Shown here piece after piece: positions 10,322 to 17,231 of a DNA stretch of 64,000 nt. Each line of letters begins with the position of its first letter. Within the stretch, counting starts at the first letter, position 1. Source of the stretch: Desulfomonile tiedjei (GTDB lineage: Bacteria; Desulfobacterota; Desulfomonilia; Desulfomonilales; Desulfomonilaceae); assembly GCA_016218715.1 (NCBI GenBank), contig JACRDG010000089.1, positions 124,001 through 188,000 on the forward strand, read 5' to 3'. Below the pieces are notes generated by a model, which worked only from the letters and a program-made list of their open reading frames with translations, did no database searches and was not told where the DNA came from. The translations under genes were made by a program, and so were the position numbers.

Positions 10322-10413
10322 CACCACGTCGCAATTCTAAGAGCAATTCTGGGGGGAACTTCTTTGTGCAAAGAAGTTCCCCCCAGATTACTTCTTTGAA
10401 TGCGACGTGGTGT
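10321..10413. repeat. Repeat family A, copy 1: nested 93-bp palindrome between convergent genes
   Basis: Outer arms of 13 bp (10321-10333 and 10401-10413) are perfectly complementary, and an inner 19-bp perfect stem (10348-10366 and 10369-10387) has only two bases between the arms. It starts on the last base of the hslU stop codon and faces the end of the PxxKW gene. A related element lies at 22.77-22.86 kb in the same kind of place. It probably acts as a bidirectional terminator or mRNA 3'-end stabiliser, although there is no U-run. Confidence 0.75.
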
Positions 10414-10510
10414 CACAGGGTTCGGAGGCGCGCACGACGTCCTGTGCTGCACGCGCGCGAGTAGCGTGCGACCGCGGTCTGGGGAAGGATAGGATCTTCC
10501 GGTCCGGGGC

Positions 10511-10801
10511 TTACTTCATTTTGGCGCCGGCAGCTCGTTTTGAAGCCTTGAGCGGGTTGAGCTTTTGCGCTTCTTCGACAACGGCTGCTTTGAGGTGCGT
10601 CGCGAAATTACAGGCTCCGGTGGTCCACTTTTTGGCAGGATGAGGGACGACGAGACAGAATATGCCTTCGTCAGAGTTCAGGGTCTTGGTACAGCCTTCA
10701 CACGATTCGACGACCGCATGGCACCGGCCGCCGTTAAAATTGCATCCTTTTCTGGTCATGAAGGCGCACTCGACGCCCTTTTTCAAGGTTAGGCACTGCA
10801 T
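10511..10801 (-). CDS. PxxKW family cysteine-rich protein
   Basis: A 96-residue protein with seven or eight cysteines, including CEGC, and the PAKKW motif that names the PxxKW family seen in deltaproteobacteria. The C-terminus is lysine- and alanine-rich. The function is not known; the cysteines suggest metal binding. GGAGGAATTC stands 8-17 bases before the ATG, a strong ribosome binding site, and a good promoter is found 55-85 bp upstream. Confidence 0.8.
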   Translation of the reverse strand: MQCLTLKKGVECAFMTRKGCNFNGGRCHAVVESCEGCTKTLNSDEGIFCLVVPHPAKKWTTGACNFATHLKAAVVEEAQKLNPLKASKRAAGAKMK

Positions 10802-10854
10802 TGACTGAATTCCTCCGGTCTGGGGTGAAGTCCGGGGGTCCTTCCCCGGAACGT

Positions 10855-10884
10855 GTATAATCCTTTTAGTATATCCATTGTCAA
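10855..10884 (-). promoter_or_regulatory. Sigma70-type promoter for the PxxKW gene
   Basis: On the minus strand TTGACA (10879-10884) and TTATAC (10855-10860) are separated by 18 bp. Transcription would start near 10848, about 45 nt before the ATG. Confidence 0.6.
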
Positions 10885-10999
10885 CAAATTCTCAAACAAA
10901 AGATTCCGTCTGCCACCATTTTTTTTTACGAACACCGCTCTTTAAAGTCCACCATTCTACCAGCCGACCGTGCCATTCCAGGACACGCACATCACCAGA

Positions 11000-13843
11000 T
11001 CACAGGGCCGGCTCTGTATCAGCCGCGTTTCCCGACGCGTCGACTTCCCGCGATGAACGGTCCTCGGTAGCCCCTGTCGAGAGATCGGGCCAACAGGCCC
11101 CCTGGCCCTGGCCGCTAAGACAGTAGGCCAGTGCGAGGAGGATCGAGTTCAGTTTGGTCTGCGCCGTGTCTCCCCGCGACGTAAGGACGATAGGGACCGT
11201 GCCGGGGCCGGCGGTGATGATCCCGCCGTTATCCACCAGAAGCCCCAGGCTCCCCATGGTCTTGGAAAGCATTTTGTACAATACGTTGGCAGTATTGATG
11301 TCCGTGGCCATCAGGCAGTTCGCGTCACCGCGGATTTCACCGCGGAAGTGCTTCTCCTCTGAGACTTCCGGGACGGTGGCCAGATCGAAGGAGAGCGGAC
11401 CTTCCACGATCAGGGGGCCGTATCGCTCTTCGAGGAGCTTGGCCTTGACCTGCGTCTCCGCGGCAAGCAGGGTAGAGGGAATAGCCGAGGTCTCCTTTTC
11501 CACCGCGGTAATAATGGCGACCTTCAAGACTTCGCGGCGATGCACCACGGATCTGACGACCGCGAGCTGATTCTCGATCGCCTTGACGAGCGCGTCGGCA
11601 TTCCTGAAGCCTGGATTCACTCCTGCATCGGAGAGCGCAAAGAAGCGGCCGTCCGGGAGCACGAACAGGGCCGTATGCGATGCCAGCTTTTTTTGGGCGT
11701 CTACAGGCGTTCCCTGGTCCGCCGGAGCGGGCGGTTTGTAGATGGATAGGGCTTCATGGAGGAGTTTGCTCGTGTCCACGCTCCCTTTCATGACTATATA
11801 ATCCGGGTTATTGGCCAGGAACTCCCTGAACACGTTCGCCATGGATACGGCCTTGGCCTCGAAATCCACAGCGAGTGGGTCGATCGGGACGATCTCCACG
11901 TTCGGGTCGAGCCCCGGTTCCAGTTGCGCCTTGCATCGCGCGAGCGCGTCGTTGATATCGTTGGGATCGCCGATGAGCGCCACTCGCTCAACGATCCCCT
12001 GGTCTCTCGCCTCGGAAACCGCAACGAGCGCGTCCTCGTTGTCCGCGCCGACGATGACGAGCCTGCCCGGCCTGGCCTTCTTTTGGTTTATGGCCGCGGT
12101 CACTTCCTCGAGTAAGGCAGAGAACGAGAAGCCTTGCGCGCCGGCCCTGGAAGCTCCCAGGACCTGGAGGGCCTTCCTCATGCTCTGTGCCTCGACGGTG
12201 AAGTTCAGACGCCGATCTCCCCGAGCCGGATTCACGTACAATTCGAACAGATGGTTGGCGATCAGGTACTCGTGTTCGAGAGAATCCAGACAGAGCACCG
12301 GAGCGGCCGGCTCCTCCACCATGCCGCGAATCCTCCGGAAGAGAGCCTGAAACTGTGGATCGTGGGCCATCATGCTCGTGATGATGATATAGTCCGGCCT
12401 CTCGCTCTCGGGTCCTGCGGAGGCCATTGCCAGCACCATGTCCACCTTGCGCGCGTAACTATCCACCACGTACGAGAGACTGCGGGCCAGCGAGGTGGAT
12501 ATCTTCCCCGATTCCACGATCATGAGCAGCTCGCAGACCTCCTTCACGCCAGTGCCGATCTCACGGGACGCGAGCCGGAAGTGAGAGGGAATAACGAAAC
12601 CGTCGTCTTCGAGGGATTTCACAATCCGGTTGAAATCGAAGTCAATAAGGATCCGGTTCGCCTCCTGCGCGGCCATCTCTCGCACGATGCGCGGACCGAT
12701 CTTGCGGGCCACGGATGCGAAGAGTTCATCAAGAGACATCACGAGCAGATTCAGATTATGTTGGCTGACGGATTCGGCTTCCGAAATAAGGGCAGCCATG
12801 GATTTGAGCGGCGTCACTTTCACGTACCCGCGCAAGCTCTGCTGGAGGTGCCTGGAATCTTCGGAATAGAAGAAGGTGAGGTCGTGCGGGCCCAGTGTGG
12901 AGAACGAGAGCGGACTGCACAGCGAGGCATGCACAACCCCGGCATCGGCTTGCACCCTCAGGAGTTCCCGGAGTTCCCAGGCCACCAGCGCGCCTCGATT
13001 GAGCGAGCTATTGTGGAGCCGTTTCCACGACTCATCCTTGACCCGCTCGTTTAGCACGTAGATCCCGTCGGGGAGCGTCCCCAGATCGCCGCCCCCGCAC
13101 ACGAGGTCGGTCACGTCTGCCAGTCGCACGTCGTTCTTGAGGAGCAGATTGGTAATCTGTAATGCCAGGGCTTCCGGTGACGTGCCGTACTGCCGAAAGG
13201 GTATCTCGGCGCGCAAGAGGGTTGTCAGGCCTCGGGTGGCCAACACGTATACCGCGTACCTCTTTGCGATCAACGCAATGGTCACTCCGCGAGCCAACCG
13301 CTCCACGGCTTCCTTAAAGCGGGCCTGATCCAGCTCGATGGCTTTGCGCCGGGATATGTTTTGCAGCATCAGGCCGATGATGCGGTTTCCCCGACCCGGC
13401 GCGCCGGCCCTCGAAAGTGAAAGGATGTAGAGAGTCAGGAGTTCCTCGTAGAGGCGGACGAACTGTTTGTTTTGCTTGACGGATCTGAGTGCGGAGAGCA
13501 GCTTCTGCAGGAAACTTGCAAGGCTGTCGAATTCGCTCGCGTCTCTGATATCGGATGCCAGCTCGCGCAACGGCCCGAGTGCGTGCTCAGAGATAAATTC
13601 GGAAACCGTTCCAAGTTGCCGGGCCGCGCTCGCTTCCTCGTTGAGGGCTGCCAGGAATCCCTTCGCGGCAACCAGGTCCTCGGTGGGGACAATCGTTGAC
13701 GGCGCGGCAGTCTTGCCCTCGAAGTACCTCGAGTTCGCCAGGTTCTGCGCTATCTTCTCGATCTTCTCGTTTATACCCTTTTCTTGCATGGCACTCTCAA
13801 AGCTAGTCTCGGCGTTTCGGCTGCTGTCGGTCGAGACATTCAC
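11000..13843 (-). CDS. Fusion of a butyrate-kinase-like domain with a phosphate acetyl/butyryltransferase domain
   Basis: A 947-residue protein in three parts. Residues 1-190 are helical and unrecognised. Residues about 190-540 resemble butyrate kinase: a VCGGGDLGTLPDGIYVLNE block corresponds to the GRGG...PGGxYxVNE block of that family, and IIITSMMAHDP corresponds to the GGIAHS block. The first phosphate-binding motif (NPGSTSTK in active kinases) is not present, so this half looks degenerate. Residues about 575-915 match the phosphotransbutyrylase/phosphotransacetylase family: DNEDALVAVSEA, VMKGSVDTSKLL, EGPLSFDLA, DINTANVLYK and PIVLTSRGD. The C-terminal half should exchange acyl-CoA and phosphate for acyl-phosphate. 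It is divergent from ackA, which would convert acetyl-phosphate to acetate plus ATP. The start used is GTG at 13843; an ATG at 13789 is an alternative. Confidence 0.8.
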   Translation of the reverse strand: MNVSTDSSRNAETSFESAMQEKGINEKIEKIAQNLANSRYFEGKTAAPSTIVPTEDLVAAKGFLAALNEEASAARQLGTVSEFISEHALGPLRELASDIRDASEFDSLASFLQKLLSALRSVKQNKQFVRLYEELLTLYILSLSRAGAPGRGNRIIGLMLQNISRRKAIELDQARFKEAVERLARGVTIALIAKRYAVYVLATRGLTTLLRAEIPFRQYGTSPEALALQITNLLLKNDVRLADVTDLVCGGGDLGTLPDGIYVLNERVKDESWKRLHNSSLNRGALVAWELRELLRVQADAGVVHASLCSPLSFSTLGPHDLTFFYSEDSRHLQQSLRGYVKVTPLKSMAALISEAESVSQHNLNLLVMSLDELFASVARKIGPRIVREMAAQEANRILIDFDFNRIVKSLEDDGFVIPSHFRLASREIGTGVKEVCELLMIVESGKISTSLARSLSYVVDSYARKVDMVLAMASAGPESERPDYIIITSMMAHDPQFQALFRRIRGMVEEPAAPVLCLDSLEHEYLIANHLFELYVNPARGDRRLNFTVEAQSMRKALQVLGASRAGAQGFSFSALLEEVTAAINQKKARPGRLVIVGADNEDALVAVSEARDQGIVERVALIGDPNDINDALARCKAQLEPGLDPNVEIVPIDPLAVDFEAKAVSMANVFREFLANNPDYIVMKGSVDTSKLLHEALSIYKPPAPADQGTPVDAQKKLASHTALFVLPDGRFFALSDAGVNPGFRNADALVKAIENQLAVVRSVVHRREVLKVAIITAVEKETSAIPSTLLAAETQVKAKLLEERYGPLIVEGPLSFDLATVPEVSEEKHFRGEIRGDANCLMATDINTANVLYKMLSKTMGSLGLLVDNGGIITAGPGTVPIVLTSRGDTAQTKLNSILLALAYCLSGQGQGACWPDLSTGATEDRSSREVDASGNAADTEPAL

Positions 13844-13881
13844 GCGTGGAGCGTCGGTTCTCGATCGTCATTCGCCACCAT

Positions 13882-13909
13882 CATATATGACCCCAGTCCA
13901 TTTTGTTAA
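13882..13909 (-). promoter_or_regulatory. Possible promoter for the phosphotransacylase fusion gene
   Basis: On the minus strand TTAACA (13904-13909) and TATATG (13882-13887) are separated by 16 bp in the 173-bp region between the fusion gene and ackA. The expected transcription start is near 13875, just before the GTG at 13843. Confidence 0.4.
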
Positions 13910-14016
13910 CCGCCCAAAGAGCGGAGAGGATTTTTTTCTCGTCCGCCGCGCTTTGGGGTATCCTGGTTGGGTTCGGAGGCGTCTGCCATCCCGACTTTCG
14001 TGCAGGGGAGCGATAC

Positions 14017-15225
14017 GTGAAAACACTCGTGATCAACAGCGGAAGTTCTTCGCTCAAATACACCCTCTTTGATATGGCCCACGAGACCGTACTTTTTGCG
14101 GGGGGGATCGAGAGGATCGGCCTCCCCGGCGGTGTGCACGTCTCTCGTTTCGGAAGCGATGAAGAGACGAGGAAGGCGGTCAATGTCGGCGATCACGGTC
14201 AGGCGCTGGACGACATGCTCGCCACCCTGATTGCCGGTCCGCTCGAATCGTTGGACCAGCTGGCTGCGGTGGCTCATCGGGTCGGTCATGGAGGAAAATA
14301 CTGGGACGCGGTGCGTATCGACGATGAGGTGCTGGCGGAGATTCGACGCATGACTCCGATGATTCCGCTTCATCATCCCGCGATGATCGAGGAGATTGAA
14401 GAGTGTCGGGTTCGGATGCCCCACGCGGTGCACGTTGCTGTGTTCGACACCTGGTTCCATAAGAGCATCCCGGTGGAAGCGGCAATCTACGGTTTACCTT
14501 ATCGGTACTTCGCGGAGCGGGGCTATCGCCGCACCGGGTTTCACGGCAACTCCCACGCGTATGTCTCGTTGACCGCCGCGCAGTTTCTTCGCCGGAATCT
14601 GGACGAGCTGAAAGTCATCTCCTGCCATTTGGGAAACGGCGCGAGTATCTGTGCCATAGCCAGAGGAAAATCCATCGACACTACCCTGGGAATGACAGCG
14701 GTGGAGGGGCTCATCATGGGGACCCGGTCGGGGGACGTGGATCCCGGCCTGATACCGATCATCATGGAAGAAGACTCCCTTTCTCCCGGAGACCTGATCG
14801 ACCTGCTCTACAAAGAGTCCGGCCTCAAAGGAATTAGCGGCGTCAGCAGCGATATGCGTGAAGTGGAAGCCGCTGCGGAGCAGGGCAACGAAAGGGCCGT
14901 GCTGGCGCTCAACGCATTCTGTTACAAGGTCAAGCGCTCGATTGGGGCCATGCTCATGGTTCTGGGAGGGTGTGACGTGCTGATCTTCACCGGGGGCATC
15001 GGTTGCAACAGACCCACGGTGAGATCCAAAGCACTGGCGGGAACGGAACGCCTCGGTTTCGTGATCGATGAGGCGCTCAATAGCCGCGCTTGCGTTGAGA
15101 GCCCTGTGACGGACATCTCTCCCCCGAGCTTGCCAACCCGGATTCTCGTGATACGCACATTTGAGGAGCTGATGATGGCCCGGCAGTGCGTGCAGGCGAT
15201 CGGATGGGCGCCGGGATCCGAATAG
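14017..15225 (+). CDS. ackA: Acetate kinase
   Basis: From the GTG at 14017 the protein is 402 residues, the usual length. The reading frame extends 38 codons further upstream, but GTG is preceded by AGGGGAG at 6-12 bases and begins the conserved MKTLVINSGSSSLKY. Family motifs are intact: N7, S10, S12; HRVGHGG; FDTWFH; GFHGNSH; HLGNGAS; IMGTRSGDVDPG; and a late FEELMMAR with its conserved Glu. The GGIGEN motif reads GGIGCNR, so the Glu and the residue after Asn are changed while the Asn is kept. It makes acetate and ATP from acetyl-phosphate and ADP, in the cytoplasm. With the divergent phosphotransacylase fusion it forms an acyl-CoA to acetate energy-yielding route, reversible for acetate activation. 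Confidence 0.95.
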   Translation: MKTLVINSGSSSLKYTLFDMAHETVLFAGGIERIGLPGGVHVSRFGSDEETRKAVNVGDHGQALDDMLATLIAGPLESLDQLAAVAHRVGHGGKYWDAVRIDDEVLAEIRRMTPMIPLHHPAMIEEIEECRVRMPHAVHVAVFDTWFHKSIPVEAAIYGLPYRYFAERGYRRTGFHGNSHAYVSLTAAQFLRRNLDELKVISCHLGNGASICAIARGKSIDTTLGMTAVEGLIMGTRSGDVDPGLIPIIMEEDSLSPGDLIDLLYKESGLKGISGVSSDMREVEAAAEQGNERAVLALNAFCYKVKRSIGAMLMVLGGCDVLIFTGGIGCNRPTVRSKALAGTERLGFVIDEALNSRACVESPVTDISPPSLPTRILVIRTFEELMMARQCVQAIGWAPGSE

Positions 15226-15437: not shown

Positions 15438-17231
15438 ATGGCGACGGGATCATTAGGCGAGAGCGAAGAGCCGGCCCGGACAGGCGGACGGAACGATCCG
15501 GGGAGTAAGAATTTGGCATCGTGGGGCGACGAGTCGCTACGAAAGGACCAACTCGCCCAAGAGAAGCTGAATCTGGCGGCAGAGATCATAGACAGCATCG
15601 ACGAGGCGATCGTTATCACGGATGTCCAGGGTAACATCGTGCAGGTGAACGACGCATTCTGCAGGCTTACAGGCTACTCCGCGGCCGAAGTGCACGGGAA
15701 GAATCCGCGAGTGATGAAGTCCCATCGGCATGACGGGGAATTCTATCGCCGCATGTGGAAGAGCCTCACCAAGACCGGACGGTGGCAGGGCGAGCTTTGG
15801 GACCGGCGCAAGGACGGAGAGGTCTTCGCCAAACTCATGTCGATCAGTTCGATCACCAATCACCGGGGAGAAGTGACTCACTTTGTGGGCGTCTTCTCCG
15901 ACATCACCGAGAGGAAAGAGGCTGAGGCGCACCTGACAAATCTTGCGCACTACGATCCATTGACGGGACTTCCAAACCGAACCCTTGCAATGGATCGTTT
16001 GAGACAGGCCGTCCTGCAAGCCGAGCGGCCAGGGCGCAGCGTCGCGGTACTGGTTCTGGATCTGGATGGCTTCAAGGAGATCAATGACACCTTGGGTCAC
16101 CCTGCAGGCGACGATCTCCTGGCCGCTGTGGCCCAAAGGCTCAGGGAAACCGTGAGAAGAGGTGACACGGTAGCTCGCATCGGGGGGGACGTATTCACGG
16201 TGATCCTGCCGGAGGTCCAGGACGGGACTGAAGTGGCTTCGGTGGCTCGCAAACTGATCGATCGCCTGGCCGGCTCCTACCGGGTTGCGGATACGGACAT
16301 CTCCATCACCGCGAGCATCGGGGTGGCGGTCTATCCCGATGACGGCTCCGATGCGGAAACCCTGATTCAAAATGCGGATGCGGCCATGCATCGTGCCAAG
16401 GAAGGGGACAGAAACACCTTTCAGTTCGTATCCAGCGGCATGAATCTGAATGTGCTCAACCGACTCGAGCTGGAAACCGAACTACGGCTCGCCATTCAAC
16501 GAGACCAGTTCGTCCTCCACTATCAACCGCAACTGGAAGTCCGTACCGGCCGCGTCGTGGGGATCGAAGCGCTGCTCCGATGGAACCATCCGCGTGACGG
16601 CCTTGTATTGCCGGGGAGATTCGTCCCACTTGCCGAAAAGACTGGCCTGATAGGTCCCATAGGCGATTGGGCGCTGCGCGCGGCCTGTATCCAGAATGGA
16701 GCATGGCAACGCGAAGGCCTGGGGAAGTACCGCATCGCGGTCAACCTCTCGGCCCGTCAAGCCGAGGGACCCAGGATCTTGGCCGTACTCGACAAAATCC
16801 TCAAGGAGACGGGCCTCGATCCCAATTCTCTGGAACTTGAAGTCGGCGAGGGTACGGTGATTCAGGGTACGGAAAGCACCATCGAGGCGCTACGACAGTT
16901 GCGGAGGATCGGAGTGATCGTCAGCGTGGACCGCTATGGTGCCGGATACGCGTCTCTCAGTCACCTGCAGCGATTCCCGGTGGATAAGGTGAAGATCGAC
17001 CGGGCCATTATTGCGGCGGTTTCCGGAGAGCCGGACGACGCGGTGATGGTACGCGCGATCATCGCGGCGGCACACAGCATGAACCTGAAAGTAGTGGCGG
17101 AAGGGGTCGAAACTGAAGCCCAGCTTGCTTTCCTGAGGCATCATGACTGCGACTTCTGGCAGGGAAACCTGGGTTCCCGACCGGTGCCGGCAGATGCCCT
17201 TGCGTCGTTCCTGCGGCAACTCGCGGGCTGA
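15438..17231 (+). CDS. PAS-GGDEF-EAL protein with altered active sites in both output domains
   Basis: A 597-residue cytoplasmic protein: PAS (about 45-160), GGDEF (about 165-330) and EAL (about 340-597). The cyclase motif reads GGDVF (249-253), so the catalytic Glu is Val and cyclase activity is doubtful. The EAL motif itself is intact (377-379), as are N436 of VNLS, E471, K519 and E of AEGVE and Q575, but the DDFG metal pair reads DRYG (498-501), replacing the second Asp with Arg. The protein may bind GTP or c-di-GMP as a sensor rather than make or break it, or be a weak phosphodiesterase. GGAGG precedes the ATG by 8 bases. No membrane segment is seen. Confidence 0.9.
   Translation: MATGSLGESEEPARTGGRNDPGSKNLASWGDESLRKDQLAQEKLNLAAEIIDSIDEAIVITDVQGNIVQVNDAFCRLTGYSAAEVHGKNPRVMKSHRHDGEFYRRMWKSLTKTGRWQGELWDRRKDGEVFAKLMSISSITNHRGEVTHFVGVFSDITERKEAEAHLTNLAHYDPLTGLPNRTLAMDRLRQAVLQAERPGRSVAVLVLDLDGFKEINDTLGHPAGDDLLAAVAQRLRETVRRGDTVARIGGDVFTVILPEVQDGTEVASVARKLIDRLAGSYRVADTDISITASIGVAVYPDDGSDAETLIQNADAAMHRAKEGDRNTFQFVSSGMNLNVLNRLELETELRLAIQRDQFVLHYQPQLEVRTGRVVGIEALLRWNHPRDGLVLPGRFVPLAEKTGLIGPIGDWALRAACIQNGAWQREGLGKYRIAVNLSARQAEGPRILAVLDKILKETGLDPNSLELEVGEGTVIQGTESTIEALRQLRRIGVIVSVDRYGAGYASLSHLQRFPVDKVKIDRAIIAAVSGEPDDAVMVRAIIAAAHSMNLKVVAEGVETEAQLAFLRHHDCDFWQGNLGSRPVPADALASFLRQLAG

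Follow-up and report, generated by a model that had tools for sequence, protein, structure and literature searches.

The fusion gene and its divergent ackA neighbour

The window analysed here, a stretch of 64,000 nucleotides from Desulfomonile tiedjei, contains a minus-strand gene whose product joins a helical N-terminus, a pseudokinase region related to butyrate kinase, and a phosphotransbutyrylase region (Table 1), a three-part anatomy that is visible in the sequence or by prediction. An earlier sequence-only reading described a gene of 947 residues, and the ORF reading of the window confirms a 947-codon frame (11000-13843) that is open throughout with no break. The protein itself is probably 929 aa, however, because its homologues begin at Met19, an internal ATG at 13787-13789, and the upstream GTG at 13843 falls outside this conserved start. 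Residue numbers for the fusion protein follow the 947-aa frame. The same reading placed an unrecognised helical region of 190 residues at the N-terminus; the region is indeed helical, and family searches gave no reliable match to it, but it comprises about 145 residues (19-164). The order it gave, kinase-like then transferase, agrees with domain matches at residues 165-560 and 591-910.

Table 1. Features of the fusion/ackA locus (window coordinates; residues in 947-aa frame numbering)
Feature	Position	Strand	Remarks
Fusion gene: helical N-terminus, pseudo-butyrate-kinase, phosphotransbutyrylase	11000..13789	-	929 aa from conserved ATG
N-terminal helical region, residues 19-164	13352..13789	-	long helices in low-confidence model
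Butyrate-kinase-like (pseudokinase) region, residues 165-560	12164..13351	-	profiles and predicted fold
Phosphate-1 loop position: TIALIAKRYAVY instead of butyrate kinase NxGSTSTK	13247..13282	-	
Best-kept butyrate-kinase stretch, VCGGGDLG..PDGIYVL...NSS.NRGALVAWEL, residues 248-291	12971..13102	-	TIGR02707 52-118, hhalign
Phosphate-2 position: SLDEL instead of butyrate kinase H(L/M)GGG	12722..12736	-	
Adenosine motif position: ITSM instead of butyrate kinase LTGG	12371..12382	-	weak C-terminal profile alignment
Phosphotransbutyrylase region, residues 591-910	11114..12073	-	PF01515, TIGR02706, 7vg9 alignment
LTSRGDTAQTK signature, Ser-Arg pair S889, R890	11153..11185	-	common to C. acetobutylicum PTB
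Divergent intergenic region, fusion/ackA	13790..14016	.	227 bp
ackA, acetate/propionate kinase	14017..15225	+	402 aa; TIGR00016 E 3e-119

As also noted from the sequence previously, the fusion gene lies back to back with ackA, the two being adjacent and divergently oriented across the 227-bp gap. The nucleotide and acyl-site motifs of AckA are intact, and its translation probably begins at the GTG at 14017 rather than at the TTG at 13903. A shared operator was considered for the divergent regions and rejected, since no 9-mer was found common to at least four of seven related fusion/ackA regions. Downstream of ackA is a gene (15438-17231) judged by sequence only to be of the PAS-GGDEF-EAL type. 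hslU and the fusion gene stand about 680 bp apart (10322-10999); no ORF of at least 100 aa is confined to this interval, and Rfam gave no match there or anywhere else in the window.

The transferase half is of the phosphotransbutyrylase type

Residues 591-910 match PF01515 (PTA_PTB) with an E-value of 8.5e-18 and 65 bits against a Pfam cut-off of 24, and their best match is TIGR02706 (phosphate butyryltransferase; E 7.9e-33), above the Pta equivalogs. The TIGR02706 score of 113.8 bits does not reach the equivalog cut-off of 410.5 bits, making this half PTB-like with no equivalog assignment, and a score so far under the cut-off does not point to one particular acyl group. Phosphotransbutyrylase of C. 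acetobutylicum (7vg9) aligns end to end with the transferase half, sharing regions of the forms VMKG..(N/D)T, (L/T)(S/T)D, GPLxxDxA and TSRxDxxxTKxNSI, and is also the top PDB structural match of the full-length fusion model. The Ser-Arg active-site signature TSRGDTAxTK is present, as in 7vg9, in the fusion members that have this end, in line with the earlier description of this half as apparently intact. By profile the fusion is not a long (E. coli-type) Pta: its Pta equivalog score is far under the cut-off, and DRTGG matches below threshold (E 0.03) at residues 589-617, within the PTB region.

A butyrate kinase relative that has lost its kinase motifs

The kinase-like half (residues 165-560) has no match in Pfam, PF00871 included. 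On sequence profiles and a predicted fold it is a distant relative of butyrate kinase with a duplicated ASKHA fold. The butyrate kinase model TIGR02707 matches 11 of 12 fusion members (best E 7.5e-5), and its positions 52-118 match several fusions in genome searches at about 20 bits, below the family cut-off of 289, which the kinase-like half does not reach. Comparison by hhalign of a profile of 12 fusions with one built from seven butyrate kinases of the same phylum gave an E-value of 1.3e-4 over 131 columns in a sensible register. None of 100 column shuffles did as well, and shuffles and a reversed profile scored far lower (best 23.0, against 40.3); a global forced alignment gave a meaningless register.

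When an AlphaFold2 model of the kinase-like half (pLDDT 67, moderate confidence) was compared with the PDB using Foldseek, the butyrate kinases 9a71 (E 1.5e-13) and 1saz (3.2e-13) led the matches, with acetate kinases next, so that the structural comparison upholds the kinship proposed from the sequence. The matches cover about 390-424 columns, from which both ASKHA lobes appear to be present in the model, with TM-scores near 0.5 and high rmsd that make its domain details unreliable. Searching the PDB by sequence alone with the kinase-half profile gave no meaningful match, and the homology thus rests on the butyrate kinase profiles together with the predicted fold.

The absence of the first phosphate motif had been remarked upon before, and the loss extends further. 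In the butyrate kinases taken as reference, the motifs are of the types (I/L)NxGSTSTK (apart from one or two variants), H(L/M)GGG, LTG(G/S) and VDPPS, at the aligned positions of which the fusions have KRYAxY, (S/T)LD(E/G), (I/V/L)TS(M/T) and (C/V)SPLS. Phosphate-1, Phosphate-2, the Adenosine motif and the catalytic Asp are thereby replaced in all 12 fusion members checked, with the Asp position occupied by an invariant Ser310 in the hhalign register; the Phosphate-2 register is backed by several alignments and by predicted strands. Judged from these replacements, the kinase-like half has probably lost the usual mode of binding ATP. An active bifunctional Buk-Ptb enzyme is disfavoured by the loss of the kinase motifs, and the gene should not be annotated as one.

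The best-kept stretch, residues 248-291, matches the lobe that bears the acyl-site residues in acetate kinase (AckA residue roles as given in PMC3475010). Because this lobe is the best preserved, acyl sensing is a plausible leftover role.

Constraint on the two halves

Mean pairwise identity among the fusions is 67.9% in the kinase-like half and 70.0% in the PTB half, compared with 32.5% in the N-terminus. For the kinase-like half, dN/dS in three close pairs came to 0.046, 0.046 and 0.127, and for the PTB half to 0.054-0.062. By these values the kinase-like half is under a constraint nearly equal to that on the transferase. Three genome-search matches (L021, L023, L024) contain one stop each, yet every one of these loci has an open frame of more than 900 aa, and the stops therefore probably lie in short ends beyond the gene. 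A decaying or pseudogenised kinase half is ruled out by the frame being open family-wide, the 68% identity and the low dN/dS.

A kinase half that is dead by its motifs and yet strongly conserved suggests a structural or regulatory job, and the earlier proposal of a regulatory, structural or AckA-binding half is compatible with these results. The strong conservation and low dN/dS would also suit a half that is still enzymatic, working by an altered mechanism or in a new reaction (for example as an acyl phosphatase, or with a different nucleotide site) and leaving the protein bifunctional; a Glu pair in its LEHEYLIAN stretch lines up, on visual inspection, with the part of AckA that holds the metal-binding Glu (RTFEEL). 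We regard such activity as improbable, because every member checked has other residues in place of Phosphate-1, Phosphate-2, the Adenosine GG and the catalytic Asp.

The fusion in the Desulfomonilaceae

A search for the same fusion in relatives, as suggested by the sequence-only reading, showed that it recurs, but within the single family Desulfomonilaceae. It is present in 17 of 18 genomes of this family, the remaining one being 82%-complete with only an ackA fragment. A kinase-half profile search of 395 genomes drawn from the whole phylum identified five carriers, all Desulfomonilaceae, and no fusion outside the family. Among 84,980 species genomes scanned for close relatives, the only loci returned were labelled Desulfomonile, Desulfomonilaceae, generic deltaproteobacterial, Thermodesulfobacteriota or Syntrophaceae MAG. 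A mobile or plasmid-borne module was rejected, as no plasmid matched the kinase-like half.

In its own genome (99.99%-complete) the fusion is the sole PF01515 gene and ackA the sole PF00871 gene. This genome is one of 14 of the 17 carriers in which the fusion is the only member of the PTA/PTB family; the other three (G003, G005, G012) additionally have a canonical long Pta in a frame of 700-751 aa. Elsewhere in the D. tiedjei genome lie four or more homologues of ADP-forming acyl-CoA synthetases; four strong alpha-type homologues (L074-L077) all score under the TIGR02717 cut-off.

A PTA fold does not itself prove activity, because the PTA domain of the hybrid malic enzyme MaeB is a catalytically dead sensor (PMC7902834). 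Taking MaeB as precedent, and with Ser-Arg lost from several standalone PTB-like proteins beside butyrate kinase genes in the same phylum, one could suppose that the transferase half too is non-catalytic and senses CoA esters, the whole protein being a regulator. Such a protein would hardly be expected to keep the Ser-Arg signature across the fusion members, or to be usually the only PTA/PTB gene in a genome with an intact AckA, and we consider this explanation very improbable.

AckA is matched in every Desulfomonilaceae genome (n=18, one match being a fragment), and a divergent ackA adjoins the fusion gene in seven of the 17 carriers (G000, G003, G005, G006, G008, G010, G012). Acetokinase-family proteins dimerise, and the dead half has the AckA-superfamily fold by prediction. 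Together with the co-occurrence and divergent adjacency of ackA, these properties form the case for the main rival to the explanation we favour, namely that the pseudokinase is a docking platform for AckA, on which the dead copy replaces one dimer partner and acyl phosphate passes from transferase to AckA. Adjacency is not universal, however, as the other ten carriers, some of whose contigs are short, showed no ackA next to the fusion, and docking seems unlikely to be the explanation. In genus g5 (L006, L008, L012, L013) ackA and the fusion are on different contigs, and the divergent pairing is thus not fixed in the family.

Proposed function and comparison with known systems

Through Pta and AckA acetate is activated or excreted, a step central to energy conservation in anaerobes. 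We infer that the transferase half is active, and think it reasonably probable from the sequence that the fusion works as a phosphotransacylase supplying AckA and that the pseudokinase is a non-catalytic module kept by selection. The transferase would interconvert acyl-CoA plus phosphate with acyl phosphate plus CoA, acetyl-CoA being the most likely substrate and propionyl- or butyryl-CoA possible ones, and the divergent AckA would turn the acyl phosphate into ATP and free acid, or work in reverse. The fused, full-length butyrate kinase relative might set the oligomer, sense a ligand, or both, in a role likened to that which N-terminal domains unrelated to it play in long Pta enzymes. The fusion is probably the main acetyl-phosphate-making enzyme of the Desulfomonilaceae. 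Counting against this explanation, the ADP-forming acyl-CoA synthetase homologues could handle the exchange between acyl-CoA and ATP.

More tentatively, a butyrate kinase may have become a pseudokinase devoted to sensing the status of acyl phosphate or acyl-CoA, or to holding AckA in position, and so to controlling the ATP-yielding acetate step. If so, it would mark the first occurrence of a pseudo-acyl-kinase as part of a phosphotransacylase, an arrangement fixed in a single family of sulfate reducers. That what is usually the sole phosphotransacylase carries a conserved dead acyl kinase implies that the control or organisation of the step is probably of a kind undescribed for other bacteria. 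The fusion also offers a natural test of Ptb association with Buk or AckA, and of what the acetokinase fold can do without ATP. A literature search for a Desulfomonile fusion or an inactive butyrate kinase found no paper describing one, in a coverage that leaves out most subscription journals.

In long Pta enzymes, additional domains on the PTA fold can set oligomeric state and allostery, and the N-terminal portion of the E. coli enzyme is an unrelated P-loop/DRTGG domain. The fusion resembles long Pta (E. coli type; PRK05632) in having a non-catalytic N-terminal portion before the phosphotransacylase domain and AckA as partner, but its catalytic half is of the PTB rather than the Pta type. 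PRK08190 (bifunctional enoyl-CoA hydratase/phosphate acetyltransferase) likewise has a C-terminal PTB-type domain, although its N-terminal partner is a hydratase-type domain where that of the fusion is an acyl kinase relative. MaeB also joins a phosphotransacylase-fold domain to a metabolic enzyme and keeps one dead half, and shows that oligomeric state and allostery can depend on an extra or dead domain attached to this fold (PMC7902834); in MaeB it is the PTA domain that serves as the dead sensor, beside an active N-terminal enzyme, a pattern that appears reversed in the fusion.

By sequence or fold, the families nearest to the two halves are those of clostridial ptb-buk (TIGR02706, TIGR02707), which are separate genes in the order ptb-then-buk with an active kinase, whereas the fusion is one polypeptide with its kinase-like half first, its kinase motifs lost and an extra helical N-terminus. 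The ptb-then-buk order was found in loci of the same phylum. Seven standalone PTB-like proteins beside butyrate kinase genes in the phylum (L036, L037, L039, L040, L041, L042, L043) are without the Ser-Arg signature, which is thought to be catalytic, and most of the adjoining kinases retain their motifs.
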